Shown piece by piece: positions 2,305-36,497 of a stretch of 36,497 bases of DNA. The stretch spans positions 1 through 36,497 of IMG/VR virus record IMGVR_UViG_3300030106_002308; one strand, 5' to 3'. The notes beneath the pieces were generated by a model that saw only the letters and a list, made by a program, of their open reading frames with translations, was not told the origin of the DNA and searched no databases. This stretch comes from a virus. Every line of letters begins with the position of its first letter. Within the stretch, counting starts at the first letter, position 1. The translations under genes were made by a program, and so were the position numbers.

Positions 2305-2535
2305 ATGCCAAGTGAACAAGAATATATAGATGCAATAGCAGACTTAAACACTCTGTTAGCAGTTCGTGACCAAAGAATAAAAGAGCTTGAACTGCAAATT
2401 ATAAAAGCAAATAAACTAATGCAAGGAGAGGATAATGCCTTACCACACAACCAAAAAGAAAATGGGAAAAGGGATGGGAATGAAGAAGAAAAAAAACGGA
2501 ATGAGAAAAAAGAAGAGAAAATAAATGCCCAGTAA
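2305..2535 (+). CDS. Small coiled-coil protein (76 aa)
   Basis: A good ribosome site (GGGAG, four bases before ATG) precedes it. Residues 1-43 are a regular amphipathic helix, probably a short coiled coil (I-A-D-L-N-T-L-L-A-V...I-K-E-L-E-L-Q-I-I). The last 33 residues are low-complexity K/E/N and coincide with the basic mini-gene at 2435-2524 in another frame. The tail of this protein may therefore be a by-product of that nested gene. Function unknown. Confidence 0.6.
   Translation: MPSEQEYIDAIADLNTLLAVRDQRIKELELQIIKANKLMQGEDNALPHNQKENGKRDGNEEEKKRNEKKEEKINAQ
2435..2524 (+). CDS. Lysine-rich mini-protein (29 aa), nested
   Basis: It has a strong ribosome site (AAGGAG, then ATG after six to nine bases) and its stop directly abuts the ATG at 2525. 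The protein starts M-P-Y-H-T-T-K-K-K and is about half lysine plus arginine, with several methionines and glycines. Similar M-P-Y-H-starting basic mini-proteins occur in marine phages (recalled, not searched). It lies inside the end of the coiled-coil gene in a different frame. Its charge suggests nucleic-acid binding or an anionic partner; the function is unknown. Confidence 0.65.
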   Translation: MPYHTTKKKMGKGMGMKKKKNGMRKKKRK

Positions 2536-2725
2536 AACTAAGAAAAAAAGTATTACTGTCAAAGGTGTTAGTCTAACGGGCCTTACTCCCAGGCAACAGA
2601 CTGCTATGAAAAAACATGGTAAACACCACACAGCAAAGCATCTTAGAGACATGAAGAAAAGAATGTCTAAAGGTACTTCGTTTACAGCAGCCCATAAACA
2701 ATCGCAGAAAGCAGTAGGAAGATGA
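2525..2725 (+). CDS. Small basic protein (66 aa)
   Basis: Starts immediately after the stop of the 29-aa mini-protein in the same frame. It is highly basic, with a motif L-T-P-R-Q-Q-T-A-M-K-K-H-G-K-H-H-T-A-K-H and a helical second half. The K/H/R content suggests nucleic-acid contact, but no named domain is visible. It overlaps the next gene by four bases (ATGA), so translation is probably coupled. It belongs to the run of basic mini-proteins between 2435 and 3797. Confidence 0.75.
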   Translation: MPSKTKKKSITVKGVSLTGLTPRQQTAMKKHGKHHTAKHLRDMKKRMSKGTSFTAAHKQSQKAVGR

Positions 2726-2943
2726 AACTATTTACATCCTTGCTACCTTTGATGCCACAACCATACAAGAATATCGTTAAGTTCTTTTTGGCTACACTTA
2801 AAAATGTAGATGAGAAAGAAGAGCTTGTAAGAATAGGAAACCTATTCGCAGATATACTGGAAGATGGAAAGGTTACTCCTCAAGAGTGGCTTACATTAGC
2901 AGGTAAAAATGGATTAGGTATACTCAAAGGCAATGGCAAGTAA
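2722..2943 (+). CDS. Small helical protein (73 aa), unknown
   Basis: ATGA overlap with the preceding gene. Unlike its neighbours it is not strongly basic. It is predicted helical, with the segment A-D-I-L-E-D-G-K-V-T-P-Q-E-W at about residues 44-57, which looks like an acidic loop followed by a helix, and a weakly hydrophobic N-terminus. No clear membrane span is present, so a holin role is not supported. It overlaps the next gene by 11 bases. Confidence 0.75.
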   Translation: MKLFTSLLPLMPQPYKNIVKFFLATLKNVDEKEELVRIGNLFADILEDGKVTPQEWLTLAGKNGLGILKGNGK

Positions 2944-3139
2944 AACTAAGAAAAAGAAAAAACGAAAGTTCGCATCAGTTCCCAAGACAAAGGGAGGTGT
3001 GCCAAAGAAGTATGTTAGGGGTGCAAAGAACCCTAAGGCTAGAGAAGCGGAGATCAAAAGAACTGCAAGACTCTACCGACAAGGCAAGCTTACTAAGGCC
3101 ATGATGGACAAAATAAGTAAACAAAGGAGTAGAGGATAA
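2933..3139 (+). CDS. Small basic protein (68 aa), conserved marine-phage type
   Basis: Starts inside the end of the previous gene. The N-terminus is lysine-rich (T-K-K-K-K-K-R-K), followed by V-P-K-K-Y-V-R-G-A-K-N-P-K-A-R, then a helical segment with E-I-K-R-T-A-R-L-Y-R-Q-G-K-L-T. A similar pattern is known to me from cyanophage and other marine phage proteins of unknown function. Strong positive charge and lack of hydrophobic stretches suggest a soluble nucleic-acid-associated protein. It ends on TAATG with the next gene. Confidence 0.8.
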   Translation: MASKTKKKKKRKFASVPKTKGGVPKKYVRGAKNPKAREAEIKRTARLYRQGKLTKAMMDKISKQRSRG

Positions 3140-3390
3140 TGGCATCAGGAAGATATAAAAGCATATCAGGTGCAAGTAGATACTCTAAGTCTACTCTTGA
3201 TAAGGTATATAAAAGAGGGCTTGGTGCATACTATTCATCTGGTAGTAGACCAAAGGTTTCAGCTCACCAGTGGGCTATGGGAAGAGTAAAGTCTTTCGTA
3301 AGTGGTAAAGGTGGTGCAAGAAAAGCTGATTCAGATCTTCTTAGAGGTGGTAAAAAGAAAAAAACTACTACTAAGAGGAAGAAGAAATAA
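3139..3390 (+). CDS. Small basic protein (83 aa), DUF5824-like
   Basis: TAATG overlap with its neighbour on each side. The core Y-K-R-G-L-G-A-Y-Y-S-S-G-S-R-P (about residues 24-38), then A-M-G-R-V-K-S-F-V and K-A-D-S-D-L-L, matches from memory a family of unknown function found in phages and large viruses (I recall DUF5824; not checked). The last dozen residues are almost all lysine, arginine and threonine, giving a disordered basic tail. Likely nucleic-acid associated by charge; role unknown. Confidence 0.8.
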   Translation: MASGRYKSISGASRYSKSTLDKVYKRGLGAYYSSGSRPKVSAHQWAMGRVKSFVSGKGGARKADSDLLRGGKKKKTTTKRKKK

Positions 3391-3665
3391 TGCCAAGAAA
3401 GAAGTTTCAAAATCCTAAAGGTGGTCTTAATGCAGCAGGTCGTGCATTTTTTAAAAGGACTGAGGGATCAAATCTCAAGAGACCACTAAAGAAAGGTACA
3501 TCACCAAGGAGAGTTAGTTTTGCTGCACGATTTGGTGGTATGGCAGGGCCTATGAAAGACAAGAAAGGTAGACCTACCAGGTTAGCTCTTGCACTTAGAG
3601 CTTGGGGATTTCGTAGTAAAGAATCTGCTAGAAACTTTGCAAAAAAACATAAAAAGAAAAAGTGA
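3390..3665 (+). CDS. Small basic protein (91 aa), DUF6321-like
   Basis: TAATG overlap with the previous gene. The central motif G-P-M-K-D-K-K-G-R-P-T-R-L-A-L-A-L-R-A-W-G is a recognisable signature of a small phage/virus family of unknown function (recalled as DUF6321). N-terminal G-L-N-A-A-G-R-A-F-F-K-R-T-E-G-S-N-L-K also fits that family. It ends in K-K-H-K-K-K-K. The conserved body with its basic tail makes this one of the better-supported members of the basic cassette. Confidence 0.85.
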   Translation: MPRKKFQNPKGGLNAAGRAFFKRTEGSNLKRPLKKGTSPRRVSFAARFGGMAGPMKDKKGRPTRLALALRAWGFRSKESARNFAKKHKKKK

Positions 3666-3671
3666 GGAACT

Positions 3672-3797
3672 ATGCCAAAACCAAAAGGTAAAAAGAAATA
3701 CAGTAAAGCACAGATGAAGATAGCTAGAGTTGCACCTCCAAGAAACAAGATTACTGGTGCTGACTTTAAGAAACTAAGAAAGAAGAAAAAGAAATGA
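3672..3797 (+). CDS. Lysine-rich mini-protein (41 aa)
   Basis: Ribosome site GAGGA, four to five bases ahead of ATG. The protein starts M-P-K-P-K-G-K-K-K-Y and ends K-K-L-R-K-K-K-K-K, with a short central segment A-R-V-A-P-P-R-N-K-I-T-G-A-D-F. It overlaps the next gene by four bases (ATGA). Its basic ends resemble the 2435-3665 proteins. Function unknown. Confidence 0.7.
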   Translation: MPKPKGKKKYSKAQMKIARVAPPRNKITGADFKKLRKKKKK

Positions 3798-3955
3798 AGT
3801 TTATAGGAAAGTTAAGACCACAAATATTTTTAGCAATAATTGTTTTAGGTATATTGTCATGCCTGGGTATCATTTATGAATATAATGAAATTGCTACAGG
3901 ATGTGTAGGAGGAATTATAGGATTGGGATTTAAAGTGTTAGAATCAGAAGAGTGA
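3794..3955 (+). CDS. Two-span mini membrane protein (53 aa), holin candidate
   Basis: ATGA overlap with the gene before and GTGA overlap with the next. A short basic head (M-K-F-I-G-K-L-R) is followed by a hydrophobic segment at about residues 10-29 (I-F-L-A-I-I-V-L-G-I-L...), a polar turn (E-Y-N-E-I-A-T-G) and a second glycine-rich hydrophobic segment (39-48), ending acidic. Size and topology fit a small phage holin, but many small phage membrane proteins look alike and no lysin gene is seen beside it. The holin call is inference. Confidence 0.6.
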   Translation: MKFIGKLRPQIFLAIIVLGILSCLGIIYEYNEIATGCVGGIIGLGFKVLESEE

Positions 3956-4053
3956 GTAAAAAGAAAGCGAAAAAAAAATTAATAACCTCAAGTGTTTTGC
4001 TTGGCCTGTGTTTAGCAGGAATGATAATTATAGGAGAATTGAACGCAAGATGA
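3952..4053 (+). CDS. Single-span mini membrane protein (33 aa)
   Basis: Starts with GTG on a four-base overlap with the preceding stop and ends on a four-base overlap with ATG at 4050, so it fits the coupled chain although it lacks its own clear ribosome site. It has a basic N-terminus (S-K-K-K-A-K-K-K), then one hydrophobic span (L-I-T-S-S-V-L-L-G-L-C-L-A-G-M-I-I-I). It could be a lysis accessory or a small membrane peptide. Its existence as a gene is plausible but unproven. Confidence 0.5.
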   Translation: MSKKKAKKKLITSSVLLGLCLAGMIIIGELNAR

Positions 4054-6104: not shown

Positions 6105-7247
6105 TTAAGTTTGGAATGTCTGTATATCAACAAACATTGGTGCATCATTTCTTATTCTATCCTCTATCATCTTTACATATTTTGGATTTAACTCAATTAG
6201 CACGGCATCACGACCTAATCTATCAGCTACTAAACCTGTAGTTCCTGCACCTGCAAATGGATCTAACACAACTTGAGATTGCACTTCTGCTTTACAGTCG
6301 CAGTCAGGTATCCACCCAATAAATTTAACCGAATCAACTAATCCACTTGGCCCTGATATATGACCATCAGTCCTACCTGTTCTTTCAGCATAATATTTTC
6401 TTTGTGATTCCATATCTCTATTAGGATTCTTTTTTCTTTCAATCTCTCTTATATATGGTTTCTTGCAATTTGAACATTGTCCATGTTCACTTGATCCTGC
6501 TTTAATACACAACTCAGGTAAAGCAACTGGAAAGGTAGCAAAATGAGCTTCGGAATAACCATTGGTAGATATGTTCCAAACATCCCTTTTATTTCTTTTT
6601 CCACTGTCTGTGTATTTTTTACCACTGTATATTAAGTAATCTCCTGATTTATCGTTACCATATTTATTGCCGCCAAACCTTTGATTAGTTTCTCCTATAT
6701 CCATTGAGTCTTCTTTGATAGCTTCGTTATCGTAATAATACCTTGCGTTTTTAGATAACAAGAAAATGTGTTCATGTGATTTAGTGCATCTGTCTTTTAC
6801 AGGCTCAGGCATAGCGTTTGGTTTGGCCCATATTATGTCTTGCCTTAGAAACCAACCATCATCCTGTAAAGCAAAGGCTACTCTCCAAGGGATACCAACT
6901 AAATTTTTACTAGCTAGTCCTGGTACTTTATTGTTAACAGGATCTTTCTTAGTATTTCTGTGTTCTAAAGCTTTTGGGTCTCCAGTATCGTCTTTACCTG
7001 TGCTAACATAAGTGTCACCCAAGTTTAACCATACAGTTCCGTCAGGCCTTAAAACTCTTTTTACTTCTTTAAAAATACTAACAAGAGCCTTTACATATTC
7101 TTGTGGTGTGCTTTCTAATCCAAGTTGATTATCAACTCCATAATCTCTTAATCCCCAATAAGGTGGGCTCGTAACAACTGTTTGTATTGATTCGTCATCA
7201 ATATTTTTAAGTTGCTCTATACAATTACCTTGCAAAATCTTAATCAT
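6105..7247 (-). CDS. DNA N4-cytosine/N6-adenine methyltransferase (380 aa)
   Basis: This protein methylates an exocyclic amino group in DNA using S-adenosylmethionine. T-S-P-P-Y-W (residues 26-31) is the catalytic motif IV. The AdoMet-binding motif lies near the C-terminus (V-L-D-P-F-A-G-A-G-T-T-G-L, about 328-340), the order of the circularly permuted beta class. Between them is a four-cysteine zinc-like site (C-S-N-C-K-K-P and C-D-C). S-P-P-Y-W is common in N4-cytosine enzymes, but adenine methylation cannot be excluded. It overlaps the C5 methyltransferase gene by eight bases and ends the early operon. It is likely protective against host restriction; no partner nuclease with obvious specificity is seen. 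Confidence 0.93.
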   Translation of the reverse strand: MIKILQGNCIEQLKNIDDESIQTVVTSPPYWGLRDYGVDNQLGLESTPQEYVKALVSIFKEVKRVLRPDGTVWLNLGDTYVSTGKDDTGDPKALEHRNTKKDPVNNKVPGLASKNLVGIPWRVAFALQDDGWFLRQDIIWAKPNAMPEPVKDRCTKSHEHIFLLSKNARYYYDNEAIKEDSMDIGETNQRFGGNKYGNDKSGDYLIYSGKKYTDSGKRNKRDVWNISTNGYSEAHFATFPVALPELCIKAGSSEHGQCSNCKKPYIREIERKKNPNRDMESQRKYYAERTGRTDGHISGPSGLVDSVKFIGWIPDCDCKAEVQSQVVLDPFAGAGTTGLVADRLGRDAVLIELNPKYVKMIEDRIRNDAPMFVDIQTFQT

Positions 7248-8586
7248 TTATTTTCCTAGCAAGAACAGTAAGTGCATACGCTGCCTGGAGAGGTACGACT
7301 CCGTTTCCAAGTATTCTGAGTCTATCAACCCTGTGTAATCCAGTGGCCACCCCATCAGCCACTCTACGAATGTCGGATTCAAACGCAGATTTTTGTAAAG
7401 CTGGTGCGAGTTTTGGGTAGTCTCTGACGATTCTTTCCCACTCTGCTGAGTTTGGGCTTGGTGGGAATGTTTTAAGTTTAATTTTTTCCTGCTCTGCATT
7501 TCCAAGTTTTTCGTTGCTTGTGAGTTCCCATCGTATCTGTATTTCGTTGGGTCGCTTGCCATCGGTGTCTGCCAATTTTCTAGTGACTCCGCTACTGACA
7601 TCCCCACTGTCTTTCCTCTTTTCCCTTTCTTCACTGACGGAGGAACTGTGTTTACTGTGTCTTTCCAATCCCTTGCGTTTGGTGTTCCCCACATACTTGC
7701 TTGGCTGCCTAGACTCGGACTGTTCCGTTGATCTGGATTTGTTTCTGGATAAGCTTGATTGTCCATCGTGCTTGGTGTCATCCACTTGTCCATCTTCACT
7801 TGATCCCCTAGTCCTACTGAGTGAGAATCCTTCTTGTTCTTGGTTAGTCTTCTCCCCTTTTCGTTCAGTTCCATTTGGTTGTGTTCTATGAAATCGTGTG
7901 TCGTTGGTGTCTTCCAGTTCTGAGTTGCTTCTTGCTCTAGAAATATTCCGTATTTCGTTCCCTTCTTGTGACTGACATTCTCCCCATCCGTCAACTCTCT
8001 CTGTCTGTGTGAGTCCATCGCCTTTGGTGTGGGCCAACTGGCTACGACTCCACTCTCCCCATCGGATGCCGCGCTTGTACGCCAAGATGAAGACTCTTTC
8101 TCTCCTATGGGATGCTCCAATGTCTGCTGCTTTAACACTTCCCCATTGTGCATCGAACCCCATTTCGGAAAGGTCTCCAAGTATGGTGTCAATTCCATGT
8201 CCAGTAATGAGGCCTAAAACATTTTCCAAGAAGAATCCTTTGGGTCGTACCGACAAACCGATTTGCTTGATGTCATCCCAAAGCCATCTTTCATCTTCTG
8301 TGCCTTTTCTTTTTCCTGCGATTGACCATGGTTGGCATGGGAATCCTCCAATGATCCAATCCACTTTTCCAATCCAAGGGCTGCCATCGAAGGTTGAGGA
8401 ATCTGACCAAATAGGTGCGTCATCCAGGATTCCTTTTTCCATGCCTTCGACCAAAACTGCGACTGACGAAATTTCTCTCTCGACATAACAGACTGTTCTA
8501 GCATTGGGAATAGCCAATCTAAATCCGATGTCGAGTCCTCCTCCTCCCGAATATAATGAGATGACATTTTCGGTATTCTTAACCAC
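7240..8586 (-). CDS. C5-cytosine DNA methyltransferase (448 aa)
   Basis: Motif I L-Y-S-G-G-G-G-L-D-I-G-F (11-22), motif IV G-G-F-P-C-Q-P-W-S with catalytic Cys84, motif VI E-N-V (121-123), motif VIII near R-R-E-R-V-F-I-L-A-Y (161-170) and the closing L-R-I-L-G-N-G-V-V-P-L-Q-A-A-Y-A-L are all present, so the enzyme should be active. Start is GTG, six bases after AGGAGG. The target-recognition part (about 171-395) is unusually hydrophilic and repeat-like, with five L/V-x-x-T motifs at spacings of about 30-45 residues (L-A-H-T, L-E-D-T, V-D-D-T, V-G-N-T, L-A-D-T). A second reading frame is open through this same part. The gene is visibly less AT-rich than its neighbours, which may indicate transfer or constraint from two frames. 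Confidence 0.95.
   Translation of the reverse strand: MVKNTENVISLYSGGGGLDIGFRLAIPNARTVCYVEREISSVAVLVEGMEKGILDDAPIWSDSSTFDGSPWIGKVDWIIGGFPCQPWSIAGKRKGTEDERWLWDDIKQIGLSVRPKGFFLENVLGLITGHGIDTILGDLSEMGFDAQWGSVKAADIGASHRRERVFILAYKRGIRWGEWSRSQLAHTKGDGLTQTERVDGWGECQSQEGNEIRNISRARSNSELEDTNDTRFHRTQPNGTERKGEKTNQEQEGFSLSRTRGSSEDGQVDDTKHDGQSSLSRNKSRSTEQSESRQPSKYVGNTKRKGLERHSKHSSSVSEEREKRKDSGDVSSGVTRKLADTDGKRPNEIQIRWELTSNEKLGNAEQEKIKLKTFPPSPNSAEWERIVRDYPKLAPALQKSAFESDIRRVADGVATGLHRVDRLRILGNGVVPLQAAYALTVLARKIND
7248..8198 (-). other. Overlapping same-strand open frame inside the C5 methyltransferase (316 codons)
   Basis: This frame is open for 316 codons inside the methyltransferase gene and ends eight bases from its stop. 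It carries five W-x-T-P-x-x-x-D motifs (W at about 55, 95, 139, 170 and 209) and ends with L-N-P-T-F-V-E-W-L-M-G-W-P (about 273-285). I recall proteins of this kind (W-P-T-P-x-A-x-D repeats plus L-N-P-x-F-V-E-W-L-M-G) as annotated hypothetical phage proteins near C5 methyltransferases. The same frame is also open further upstream (8588-8214, with an ATG two bases before the GTG start) and is broken by one stop near 8214. It is either a true overprinted gene or a side effect of the repeat coding. Confidence 0.35.
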
Positions 8587-33183: not shown

Positions 33184-34931
33184 GTAATGAGTTTCAACAT
33201 AAATCGGTAGGAAGTCAGATGACTCAGACCGAGTACGAGCATACTGACGGAACAGGACATATATTTGATAGTCAAGCAGCAGGAGATATTCTCTTTGCAA
33301 GTTCTACTACAGTTCTATCAAGACTAGGTATAGGTACAGCAGGTAAGGTTCTTGCAGTAAACTCTGGTGCATCAGCTCCAGAATATGTTGCAGCACTAAC
33401 AGGAGTTACCTCTGTCCTTAATACAGCTTTGGTTGTAGGTAGAGATGCAGACAATGACATTGACTTTGCAACTGACAACAATATTATTTTTAGAGCAGCA
33501 GGTGCTGACCAAATCAAATTAGTAGATGGTGTGTTACAACCAGTAACTGACTCTGATGTAGACTTAGGTACTACTGGAGTAAGATTTAAAGATGCTTATA
33601 TAGACACAGTAACAACTACAGGCGATGTAACAGTTGGTGGTGACCTTACCATAACAGGTGATGATTTGTTTATGGGAACTAATACAGCAGGTCATTTACT
33701 TATTGCAGATGGTACAAACTTTAATCCTACAGCAGTTGGTGATTTATCAGAAATATCTACAGTCGCAAACGATGATGTATTTATTGCAGTTGACACATCA
33801 GGTGGTGGTTTAAAGAAGATAGCTAGAAGTGCTATCGTAGCTGGTTTAGCAACATCAGGTGCAATATCAAATGTTGTAGAGGACACTTCACCAGAGCTTG
33901 GTGGCGATTTAGATGTACTCACACATGGAATAGTAACAGGTGCTAGTAATAGAAACATAGCACTTACACCACATGGTACAGGTGTAGTAAGAATTGATGG
34001 TACAAATGGTGTAGACATAGAATCAGGTGCCATATCAATTAAAAATGGTGGTGCAGAATCTTATGTAAGATTTTATTGTGAATCATCAAACGCACACTAC
34101 ACACAATTACAAGCATCACCACATTCTGCTTATTCTGGCAATGTAACAGTAGTATTACCTGCTGCTGCTACAAATCTAGTTGGTGATGACACAACCCAGA
34201 CACTAACTAACAAAAGACTTACATCACCAAAGATAAACGAAGATGTAGCTCTTACATCAACTGCTACAGAACTTAATTTACTTGATGGTGTATCAGGATT
34301 AGTACAAGCTGACTTTACTAAGTTAGCAGCAGTAGATGCTACTGCAACAGAACTTAATATTATGGATGGTGATACTACAGTAGGAACAGATGCCATTGCA
34401 GATGATGATGGTATTGTTACCAACGATGGCGGCACAATGAAACAAACTAAAGTCCAGACACTTGCTACTTACATGGAAGGTGAGATAGACAACCTTACTG
34501 CACTTACACAAGCAGTATTTGTGGGTAAGGATGCTTCAATTACAGATGATACAGCAACAGGTGTAGTAGCAACTATGACTGCATTGACTGGAGTATCTAT
34601 TGGTGAGTTAGTTCACATTGATGGTAATGGTAAAATTGACCAAGCACACGCAGATGCTAGTGCTGATATGCCAGCAATAGGTATAGCTCTTGAAGCAAAC
34701 AGTTCTGGAAGTGATGCAGACATTAAAGTTTTATTACAAGGATTTTATAAAGATGCAGACCAATTTGCCTTTACAGTTGGTACAGCAGTATTTGCAGACC
34801 ATAGTGGAGAAGGTAACTTTACACAATCACCATCTACAACTGATGGACATTTTATTCAAAGAGTAGGTATAGCTTTGACAGCAGACACACTTTACTTTAG
34901 TCCTAGTTTGGATGTTATAGAGAGGGATTAA
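33180..34931 (+). CDS. Tail fibre protein, complete copy (583 aa)
   Basis: ATGA overlap with the nozzle gene. The N-terminal third should attach to the tail. Then come repeat signatures T-E-L-N-L-L-D-G and T-E-L-N-I-M-D-G (about residues 363-400), common in marine phage fibres. After M-E-G-E-I-D-N-L-T-A the C-terminal tip (about 440-583) differs strongly from the copy at 1-528, while the last nine residues match apart from one position. A conserved stem with a variable tip suits a receptor-binding fibre. Confidence 0.82.
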   Translation: MSNEFQHKSVGSQMTQTEYEHTDGTGHIFDSQAAGDILFASSTTVLSRLGIGTAGKVLAVNSGASAPEYVAALTGVTSVLNTALVVGRDADNDIDFATDNNIIFRAAGADQIKLVDGVLQPVTDSDVDLGTTGVRFKDAYIDTVTTTGDVTVGGDLTITGDDLFMGTNTAGHLLIADGTNFNPTAVGDLSEISTVANDDVFIAVDTSGGGLKKIARSAIVAGLATSGAISNVVEDTSPELGGDLDVLTHGIVTGASNRNIALTPHGTGVVRIDGTNGVDIESGAISIKNGGAESYVRFYCESSNAHYTQLQASPHSAYSGNVTVVLPAAATNLVGDDTTQTLTNKRLTSPKINEDVALTSTATELNLLDGVSGLVQADFTKLAAVDATATELNIMDGDTTVGTDAIADDDGIVTNDGGTMKQTKVQTLATYMEGEIDNLTALTQAVFVGKDASITDDTATGVVATMTALTGVSIGELVHIDGNGKIDQAHADASADMPAIGIALEANSSGSDADIKVLLQGFYKDADQFAFTVGTAVFADHSGEGNFTQSPSTTDGHFIQRVGIALTADTLYFSPSLDVIERD

Positions 34932-36370
34932 TGTCTAATCAAGTAAAAAGTTTTAATGGTGTAGCAATAGGAGATATTAAAAATATTAATGGTCTTACTG
35001 ATGCAAATATTAAAAATATAAATGGACAAACATTTACTGGTTCAGTTCCACCAGATGCTTTTACAATAACTAATAACCAATTTAATGGTAATAGAAGTTG
35101 GGGTACACAAATGGCATGGTGTCAAGAAACTAACACATTAGTTGTAGTGTATGGTGATGACGGCAATGGTGATTACCCTACATACAGATTAGGAAAACTA
35201 AGTGCAAGCACAGGTGATGTAACAATAACTTGGCAAAGCGAACAAGTTTTAGGAACAGCAGGAGCAGGATATTCTAACCAAGCTGTATTTATGAGTGGTG
35301 AAAGTAGTGGTGGTAATGGCAGAATGGGATTAGTATATTTAGAGAGTGGTGCTAGTTCTACTAACAGATACAGTATTGCATTTGGCACAATTACAAATAG
35401 TGGTTCTACACCAAGCATGAGTGTAGGCACGCCTGAAGTAATACACGCTACATCTAGTGGTACTTATAACCAAGGTGATGTTAGTTCAACAGCAAGATAC
35501 TGGGAAGATATGGGTGCTGTTGTTACAGCATTAGAATATGGTGATGACGATGGTGATGCTAACTTTGTTAAAGCATTTAAAATGGACACTTCTGATAATA
35601 GTGTAATTACAAGTGGCAACAATGAACTTATGTTTGCTGATACTACTACAGAATTTTATAACATTGAATATGATTCTACTATAGATAGACTTGTAGTTTT
35701 TTCTTTACAATACGTTGGTGCGTCAGCTACAGCTTATATATATGGCAATATTTTAGATTATAATGCTAGTTCTACAAATGGCTTAGAATTACAGTTAGAG
35801 TTAAGTTTACCTGGAACTCAATTATTTACTGGTACTGTTGCTTCTTCTTATGATGCAGGTCCATGGTGTGCATATAATGCTAGTGCAAACATACATCATG
35901 TTTTAATGAGTGAAACTGCTGATAGCACTAAAAAAGTTCGTAATGTAAAGATTAGTGGTTCTGATGGTTCTTTTACCATGGATCCACATACAACTTATGA
36001 GCTTGCGATTCCGAGTGGTATGCTTCACTATACTTCAATTTGGTATAACCACCATAGAGGTTTAATGGGTGTCATAGGATCAAACCAATCAAGGTCAGAT
36101 GCACATCCAGATGGTTCAGTAATTCAAGCATTAGGTTATACTTTTTCAGAAGATACAGGCACAGAAGCCAACAGCACATTTTCTGCAAATGGATCAGCAC
36201 AAACTGTAAAAGTTAGCAGTCATGATCTTTTTCTTGGTAGGTATTTAGGTATGCAACAAACAATGCACGGAAGCGATATGCACACAGGTAACATGGGTGC
36301 AATCATGCCATTCTATGGTGGCTCACAAGGCCAAGAAGGTGTCATGATAGGTTTTGATACAGGTGGATAA
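34931..36370 (+). CDS. Propeller-like tail adhesin, allele/copy 2 (479 aa)
   Basis: TAATG overlap with the fibre gene. Most framework residues equal those of the 483-aa protein at 528-1979, including the N-I-K-N-I-N-G repeat and the closing H-G-S-D-M-H-T-G-N...M-I-G-F-D-T-G-G. Differences sit in short stretches such as D-D-G-D-A-N against T-S-G-Q-V-D-G-N, and S-L-Q-Y-V-G-A-S-A-T against Y-Y-I-T-D-Q-P-S-S-S, as expected of surface loops. Likely distal adhesin; inference. Confidence 0.75.
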   Translation: MSNQVKSFNGVAIGDIKNINGLTDANIKNINGQTFTGSVPPDAFTITNNQFNGNRSWGTQMAWCQETNTLVVVYGDDGNGDYPTYRLGKLSASTGDVTITWQSEQVLGTAGAGYSNQAVFMSGESSGGNGRMGLVYLESGASSTNRYSIAFGTITNSGSTPSMSVGTPEVIHATSSGTYNQGDVSSTARYWEDMGAVVTALEYGDDDGDANFVKAFKMDTSDNSVITSGNNELMFADTTTEFYNIEYDSTIDRLVVFSLQYVGASATAYIYGNILDYNASSTNGLELQLELSLPGTQLFTGTVASSYDAGPWCAYNASANIHHVLMSETADSTKKVRNVKISGSDGSFTMDPHTTYELAIPSGMLHYTSIWYNHHRGLMGVIGSNQSRSDAHPDGSVIQALGYTFSEDTGTEANSTFSANGSAQTVKVSSHDLFLGRYLGMQQTMHGSDMHTGNMGAIMPFYGGSQGQEGVMIGFDTGG

Positions 36371-36497
36371 TGGCTACAGCATTTAGAAGAAAATCAGATA
36401 ACAAAGTTGTAGTTTTGCTTACATACCTTGCAGACATAAATAACATAAATTTTACAAGTACCAATATGTCCTGCACTATGAACAATGGTGAAAAACC
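36370..36497 (+). CDS. Small tail-locus protein, 5' part only (cut by window edge)
   Basis: The first 42 codons of a second copy of the 105-aa protein at 1979-2296; the shared residues differ at only one position (T to A at residue 21). The frame is open to the edge. If the genome is circular, this gene simply continues as the 1979-2296 gene. Confidence 0.8.
   Translation, partial: MATAFRRKSDNKVVVLLTYLADINNINFTSTNMSCTMNNGEK

Follow-up and report, generated by a model that had tools for sequence, protein, structure and literature searches.

The window analysed here is the whole of a 36,497-bp contig of a marine phage, and the locus of interest is a row of seven consecutive genes at 2435–3797, six of which (B1–B6) encode small, extremely basic proteins. 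These six are 29–91 aa long and carry net charges of +14 to +26, with a combined lysine and arginine content of 27–48%, 0–3 acidic residues and pI values of 11.0–12.0; poly-lysine tails are present on B1, B4, B5 and B6. From B1/B2 onward the junctions read TAAATG, ATGA, an 11-nt overlap, TAATG, TAATG, a 6-nt gap and, between B6 and the next ORF, ATGA, the gap being the one exception to joining by stop/start abutment or overlap. A preliminary description of this DNA had reported at least six consecutive lysine- and arginine-rich mini-genes of 29–91 aa, chained by start–stop overlaps, several with poly-lysine tails and one non-basic helical gene among them. All seven ORFs were found in place, and the junctions, the tails and the neutral gene between B2 and B3 agree with that account (Table 1).

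Table 1. Genes of the basic cassette and its immediate flanks (window coordinates).
Feature	Position	Strand	Description
g1	2305–2535	+	76 aa, neutral, coiled-coil-like start; final ~34 codons shared with B1, which is read in a different frame
B1	2435–2524	+	29 aa, net +14, poly-lysine; own Shine-Dalgarno aaggagagg
B2	2525–2725	+	66 aa, net +17, phrog_31838 family, LTPRQQxxMKxHxxHHTxKH..SFxxAH
Helical non-basic gene	2722–2943	+	73 aa, neutral; most conserved gene of the cassette
B3	2933–3139	+	68 aa, net +23, phrog_38321; partner of B4
B4	3139–3390	+	83 aa, net +21, C-terminal half of Pfam DUF5824 (PF19141), poly-lysine tail
B5	3390–3665	+	91 aa, net +26, complete DUF6321 domain (PF19846)
B6	3672–3797	+	41 aa, net +17, poly-lysine tail; homologue in pelagiphage HTVC106P
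Hydrophobic 53-aa protein	3794–3955	+	downstream of cassette; possibly holin-like, not basic
33-aa protein	3952–4053	+	one hydrophobic segment, basic N-terminus

The cassette closes the series of rightward late genes, preceded by tail-fibre-like genes and far from the head genes. It is followed by two short hydrophobic ORFs and a membrane-type protein of 423 aa, past which most genes lie on the opposite strand. The contig ends repeat (498–2106 against 34901–36497 at 86%; 1–89 against 34413–34501 at 99%), as if the contig formed a closed unit of ~34.4 kb in which the tail-fibre region is present in two versions; a strain mixture or a tandem duplication may account for these. The 34-kb genome assumed previously fits this repeat unit, though not the contig itself. 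Elsewhere on the minus strand, two long ORFs overlapping in different frames (7240–8586 and 7248–8198) lie within an apparent cytosine-5 DNA methyltransferase gene.

Comparison with relatives showed the cassette frames to be under purifying selection, with dN/dS of ~0.04–0.14 where measurable (medians of 0.14 for B2, 0.036 for the helical gene, 0.09 for B5 and 0.05 for B6). B3 and B4 displayed few differences, nearly all of them synonymous and too few for a good dN/dS estimate. Only seven of the ~55 genes of the genome exceed a net charge/length of 0.2, and six of them sit within seven consecutive genes, a clustering with a permutation p of ~7e-5 (68 in 10^6) on a hand-curated gene list. This list replaced an automated annotation of the window (p = 0.11), in which a spurious minus-strand ORF was preferred over B5/B6. 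Among random ORFs of the same composition, 21 of 439 had a net charge/length above 0.24. The weakest case is B1, because it lies wholly inside g1 in another frame, and the argument for it is one of position and a strong ribosome-binding site only; basic ORFs of 27–36 aa occupy its place in five relatives (L005, L006, L007, L011 and L014). Of the overlapping gene, g1, two relatives (L007 and L011) keep the same form and others have variants. Its tail is K/E/N-rich where it overlaps B1, a possible overprinted gene pair.

The two recognisable but unexplained families mentioned in the preliminary description proved to be curated Pfam families without an assigned function. B5 is a full-length member of DUF6321 (85.2 bits, cut-off 28.5, profile positions 2–72 of 72), and B4 matches DUF5824 at 46.2 bits (cut-off 25) over positions 63–122 of 127. 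The first half of the DUF5824 model is absent from B4, whose coverage of the 127 positions is thus confined to one half, and B3 gave no match to the profile. As B3 directly precedes B4 at 92 of 98 loci, it was considered as the missing N-terminal half; alignment with the fused HTVC008M protein returned an hhalign probability of 2.9% (19% for a sub-fragment), the candidate was rejected, and that B3 supplies this half is a guess. PHROG matches were obtained for B2 (phrog_31838, E 2.6e-4) and B3 (phrog_38321, E 1.7e-7); B1 and B6 matched no family in Pfam or PHROG. A literature search found neither the name DUF6321 nor DUF5824. The DUF6321 domain of B5 was confidently modelled by AlphaFold2 as four helices (pLDDT 87.9). 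Sequence and fold searches of the PDB returned nothing, including for this model, in which no DNA-binding fold was recognised. A viral structure library returned other DUF6321 proteins, among them a domain of a ferritin/DPS-like protein, a domain of an AAA protein and an S-SCSM1 virion protein. The B4 model (pLDDT 74) was too poor to serve as a fold-search query. Scans for Rfam families and tRNAs gave no hits, and promoter-like sites in the cassette region were no more frequent than expected by chance.

Conservation in related phages, the absence of which would have refuted the preliminary description by its own criterion, is extensive: DUF6321 matched 434 viral-contig stretches and B4 at least 584, with 34 viral contigs matching B2 and 26 the helical gene, and one DUF6321 query matched 520 phage records. 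At positions −4 to +3 around DUF6321, 21–62% of genes are strongly basic (net charge/length above 0.2) by our own gene calls, compared with 4.5% of more distant small genes. Other basic families are found repeatedly in this neighbourhood, namely NYTKP (phrog_17747), KSLxKW (phrog_14910), GLYANI (phrog_16028) and CARGK/VYPSAYA (phrog_27331). An assignment of the KSLxKW family to DUF5872 was not confirmed by Pfam; the family is PHROG 14910.

In the clade that carries the helical gene, the interval between this gene and DUF6321 is filled either by B3 and B4 or by NYTKP and KSLxKW. The DNA of two such relatives (L011 and L212) is 83% identical up to a break, without homology across exactly these two genes, and 99% identical beyond; the homology between the window and L212 breaks at the same place. 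The exchanged pairs belong to unrelated families and carry net charges of +44 (B3 and B4) and +46 (NYTKP and KSLxKW). Since one pair is cleanly replaced by an unrelated pair of such similar charge between homologous flanks, the comparison suggests that charge is the property conserved. NYTKP-like and KSLxKW-like sequences were also found fused in one 125-aa ORF. A close relative (L006, 5405–5920; L214 is the same contig) carries, inserted after B6 and ahead of the gene for the 53-aa hydrophobic protein, a 171-aa gene that by eye resembles a DNA methyltransferase.

DUF6321 is a stand-alone gene here and the C-terminal domain of larger proteins in T4-like cyanophages. Proteins of S-8S53, ACG-2014f, S-SCSM1 and S-SM1 combine an RRWF-like part, a WPSAYASG part and CW-K motifs with a C-terminal DUF6321. 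The fused modules other than DUF6321 were mostly recognised by eye, with moderate profile support; S-CREM2 gp160, for instance, matches the CARGK (E 9e-4) and RRWF (E 0.03) profiles. PHROGs 727, 3477 and 11180 match such modules as well as DUF6321. In HTVC008M, DUF5824 is joined to a cytidyltransferase (hhalign 95.9%), and cytidyltransferases recur as virion proteins of cyanomyoviruses. The N-terminus of S-CREM2 gp160 (L239, 22443–23336) has a match (E 4.8e-10) to PHROG 696, a family with the label major head protein. Long basic proteins of the gp16–gp17 region in S-SZBM1 (gp082; L095, 1481–3604) and P-TIM40 (L234, 1013–3322) start with a DUF3008-like segment, and gp082 also contains a match to the S-AdoMet lyase family and an internal YREFIAEG motif that resembles a capsid-targeting or protease site.

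Proteomic data place some of these fused proteins in virions. Purified S-CREM2 virions yielded 4 unique peptides of ORF137 and 7 of ORF160 (PMC10665884), and ORF137 ends in a DUF6321-like domain (E 6e-12). The DUF6321-bearing S-SCSM1_29 is labelled 'virion protein' in its record, a label that we read as detection by MS, the source study having included a virion proteome. The peptides may derive from other parts of these long proteins than the DUF6321 domain. The DUF6321 homologue of S-SM1 is called only hypothetical, and that of S-SZBM1 is not in the virion MS table of the phage (tag numbers matched by protein length). Computed from sequence, B3 would give no tryptic peptide of 7–35 residues and B1 and B6 one each, suggesting that proteomics would miss the stand-alone proteins because trypsin leaves few detectable peptides. 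Starts resembling the T4-type capsid-targeting sequence (CTS) were found in S-CREM2 gp136 and gp154 and in T4-like DUF6321 proteins. Both S-CREM2 proteins were detected in virions (2/2; Fisher p = 0.054), a third, gp13, fitting only a loosened pattern; we regard this as suggestive only.

The genomic position of these genes in other phages frequently falls among head and packaging genes. Stand-alone DUF6321 lies between the scaffold and capsid genes in S-TIP37, HTVC168P and P-SCSP2, between TerL and portal in MEP301, and between tail fibre and TerL in MEP402; T4-like cyanophages carry DUF6321 modules between gp16 and gp17, and in several MAG-borne phage contigs the gene adjoins TerS, portal or TerL (terminase and portal genes recognised by eye). 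The gp16–gp17 site is a known hot spot for accessory genes (PMC3037559), and psbA and hli stand beside DUF6321 at the scaffold–capsid site of S-TIP37. Position alone is weak evidence because both sites are accessory-gene hot spots. In roseophage CRP-823 an ORF intervening between the portal and large capsid genes (L085, 4340–5056) contains a DUF5824-like domain, at 22.2 bits just under the cut-off of 25; its annotation as 'major capsid protein' is doubtful.

High charge, swapping at constant charge, fusion to virion proteins and a frequent head-gene neighbourhood together point to head-associated nucleic-acid binding. We tentatively favour, at a little under an even chance, the interpretation that the cassette is a set of interchangeable, head-associated, putative DNA-binding modules resembling T4 internal proteins or viral protamines. 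On this interpretation the basic proteins would be small, interchangeable products of the late operon whose charge lets them bind nucleic acid, in all likelihood the DNA of the phage itself. They would come into play while the head is being filled or within the finished particle, would be packaged in the phage of the window, and may enter the host together with the phage DNA. The preliminary description had offered three options, namely DNA-condensing head proteins, binders of the host nucleoid or ribosomes, and lysis helpers. Head association gains support from gene position, the T4-like fusions and the S-CREM2 and S-SCSM1 virion MS, whereas condensation would follow from charge only. One copy of each basic protein contributes +118 in total, and offsetting 10% of the phosphates in a 34.4-kb genome would accordingly take ~58 copies of each, a figure given as arithmetic for illustration and not as a measurement. 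Against the favoured interpretation, the cassette of the window follows the tail fibres, away from the head genes, and inspection of the N-termini of B1–B6 revealed no T4-type CTS. The S-SZBM1 table without the DUF6321 protein and the fold search, in which no DNA-binding fold was recognised, also count against it.

The same placement at the end of the late operon suits the main rival, which we consider rather unlikely, that these are late accessory proteins left unpackaged in the infected cell, where their targets would be nucleic acids of the host or of the replicating phage, in the form of nucleoid, RNA or ribosomes. High charge fits any polyanion, the accessory hot spots in which the genes occur also contain psbA, hli and genes of carbon metabolism, and the DUF6321 protein is missing from the S-SZBM1 virion MS. 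The DUF6321-bearing proteins of S-CREM2 and S-SCSM1 virions argue in the other direction, as does the result that the cassette proteins gave no Pfam match (E <= 1) to nucleoid families of the HU/IHF/H-NS type or to ribosome-binder families.

Assembly of the head, rather than its DNA, could also be the target, the proteins touching acidic scaffold, portal or terminase and then leaving or staying as minor components of the finished particle. The recurrent proximity of scaffold, capsid, portal and terminase genes, the head-protein match of S-CREM2 gp160 and the DUF5824-like domain in the portal–capsid interval of CRP-823 are consistent with such helpers. Exchange of unrelated families at equal charge, however, is more easily accommodated by DNA than by a specific protein partner, and we judge this explanation improbable.

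A role in lysis, also raised in the preliminary description, is poorly supported and by our estimate very improbable. Cationic peptides might perturb the membrane jointly with the products of the two hydrophobic ORFs that follow the cassette, and endolysin and hydrophobic genes are neighbours of the cassettes of HTVC204P, HTVC111P and Greip; B1–B6, however, have no hydrophobic segment on inspection, the same families lie far from lysis genes in T7-like, T4-like and MEP phages, and T4-like phages have modules joined to enzymes of virion type. Functionless, chance lysine-rich frames are a negligible prospect: lysine codons are favoured in A-rich DNA and B1 is short and repetitive, but purifying selection, homologues in hundreds of contigs and the clustering of basic genes all oppose the idea, which dN/dS and homology already refute for B2–B6.

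Extending the favoured interpretation of head-associated DNA-binding modules, marine phages could share a pool of ~10 small basic domain families serving as an interchangeable virion nucleoprotein, deployed as stand-alone peptides in 30–45-kb phages and as beads on virion proteins or enzymes in T4-like phages. Pairs of genes would be exchanged at conserved net charge, and the whole would amount to a protamine-like DNA-packing layer undescribed for tailed phages of such size. In this general form the proposal is speculative and more probably wrong than right. Families of the DUF6321 and DUF5824 type are very common in ocean phages yet unexplained.

Among known systems, the internal head proteins of T4 (IPI–III and Alt), whose lysines contact the phosphates of the packaged DNA (PMC3012670), offer the best mechanistic parallel, the likeness being one of variable internal proteins around a conserved packaging route. 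T4 internal proteins carry a capsid-targeting start, whereas the window proteins do not and CTS-like starts occur only in the T4-like homologues; no prohead protease was identified in the window. The viral protamine-like proteins of adenoviruses and baculoviruses are short, extremely basic and proposed to condense DNA (as cited in PMC3281028). The cassette proteins are likewise short and extremely basic, but are dominated by lysine rather than arginine and comprise several distinct families per genome, and their part in condensation is putative. In the chlorovirus PBCV-1, basic virion proteins and domains, some fused to enzymes (a basic adaptor domain; kinases A278L/A282L), are bound to DNA in the virion (PMC3281028). 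Basic proteins and enzyme-fused domains are common to PBCV-1 and the phages considered here, although PBCV-1 is a eukaryotic virus with a far larger genome, and we draw the likeness without claiming homology. The same work states that nothing indicates a large share of basic proteins in the charge neutralisation of phage dsDNA genomes (PMC3281028), a view that would need revising for marine phages should these modules indeed coat packaged DNA.
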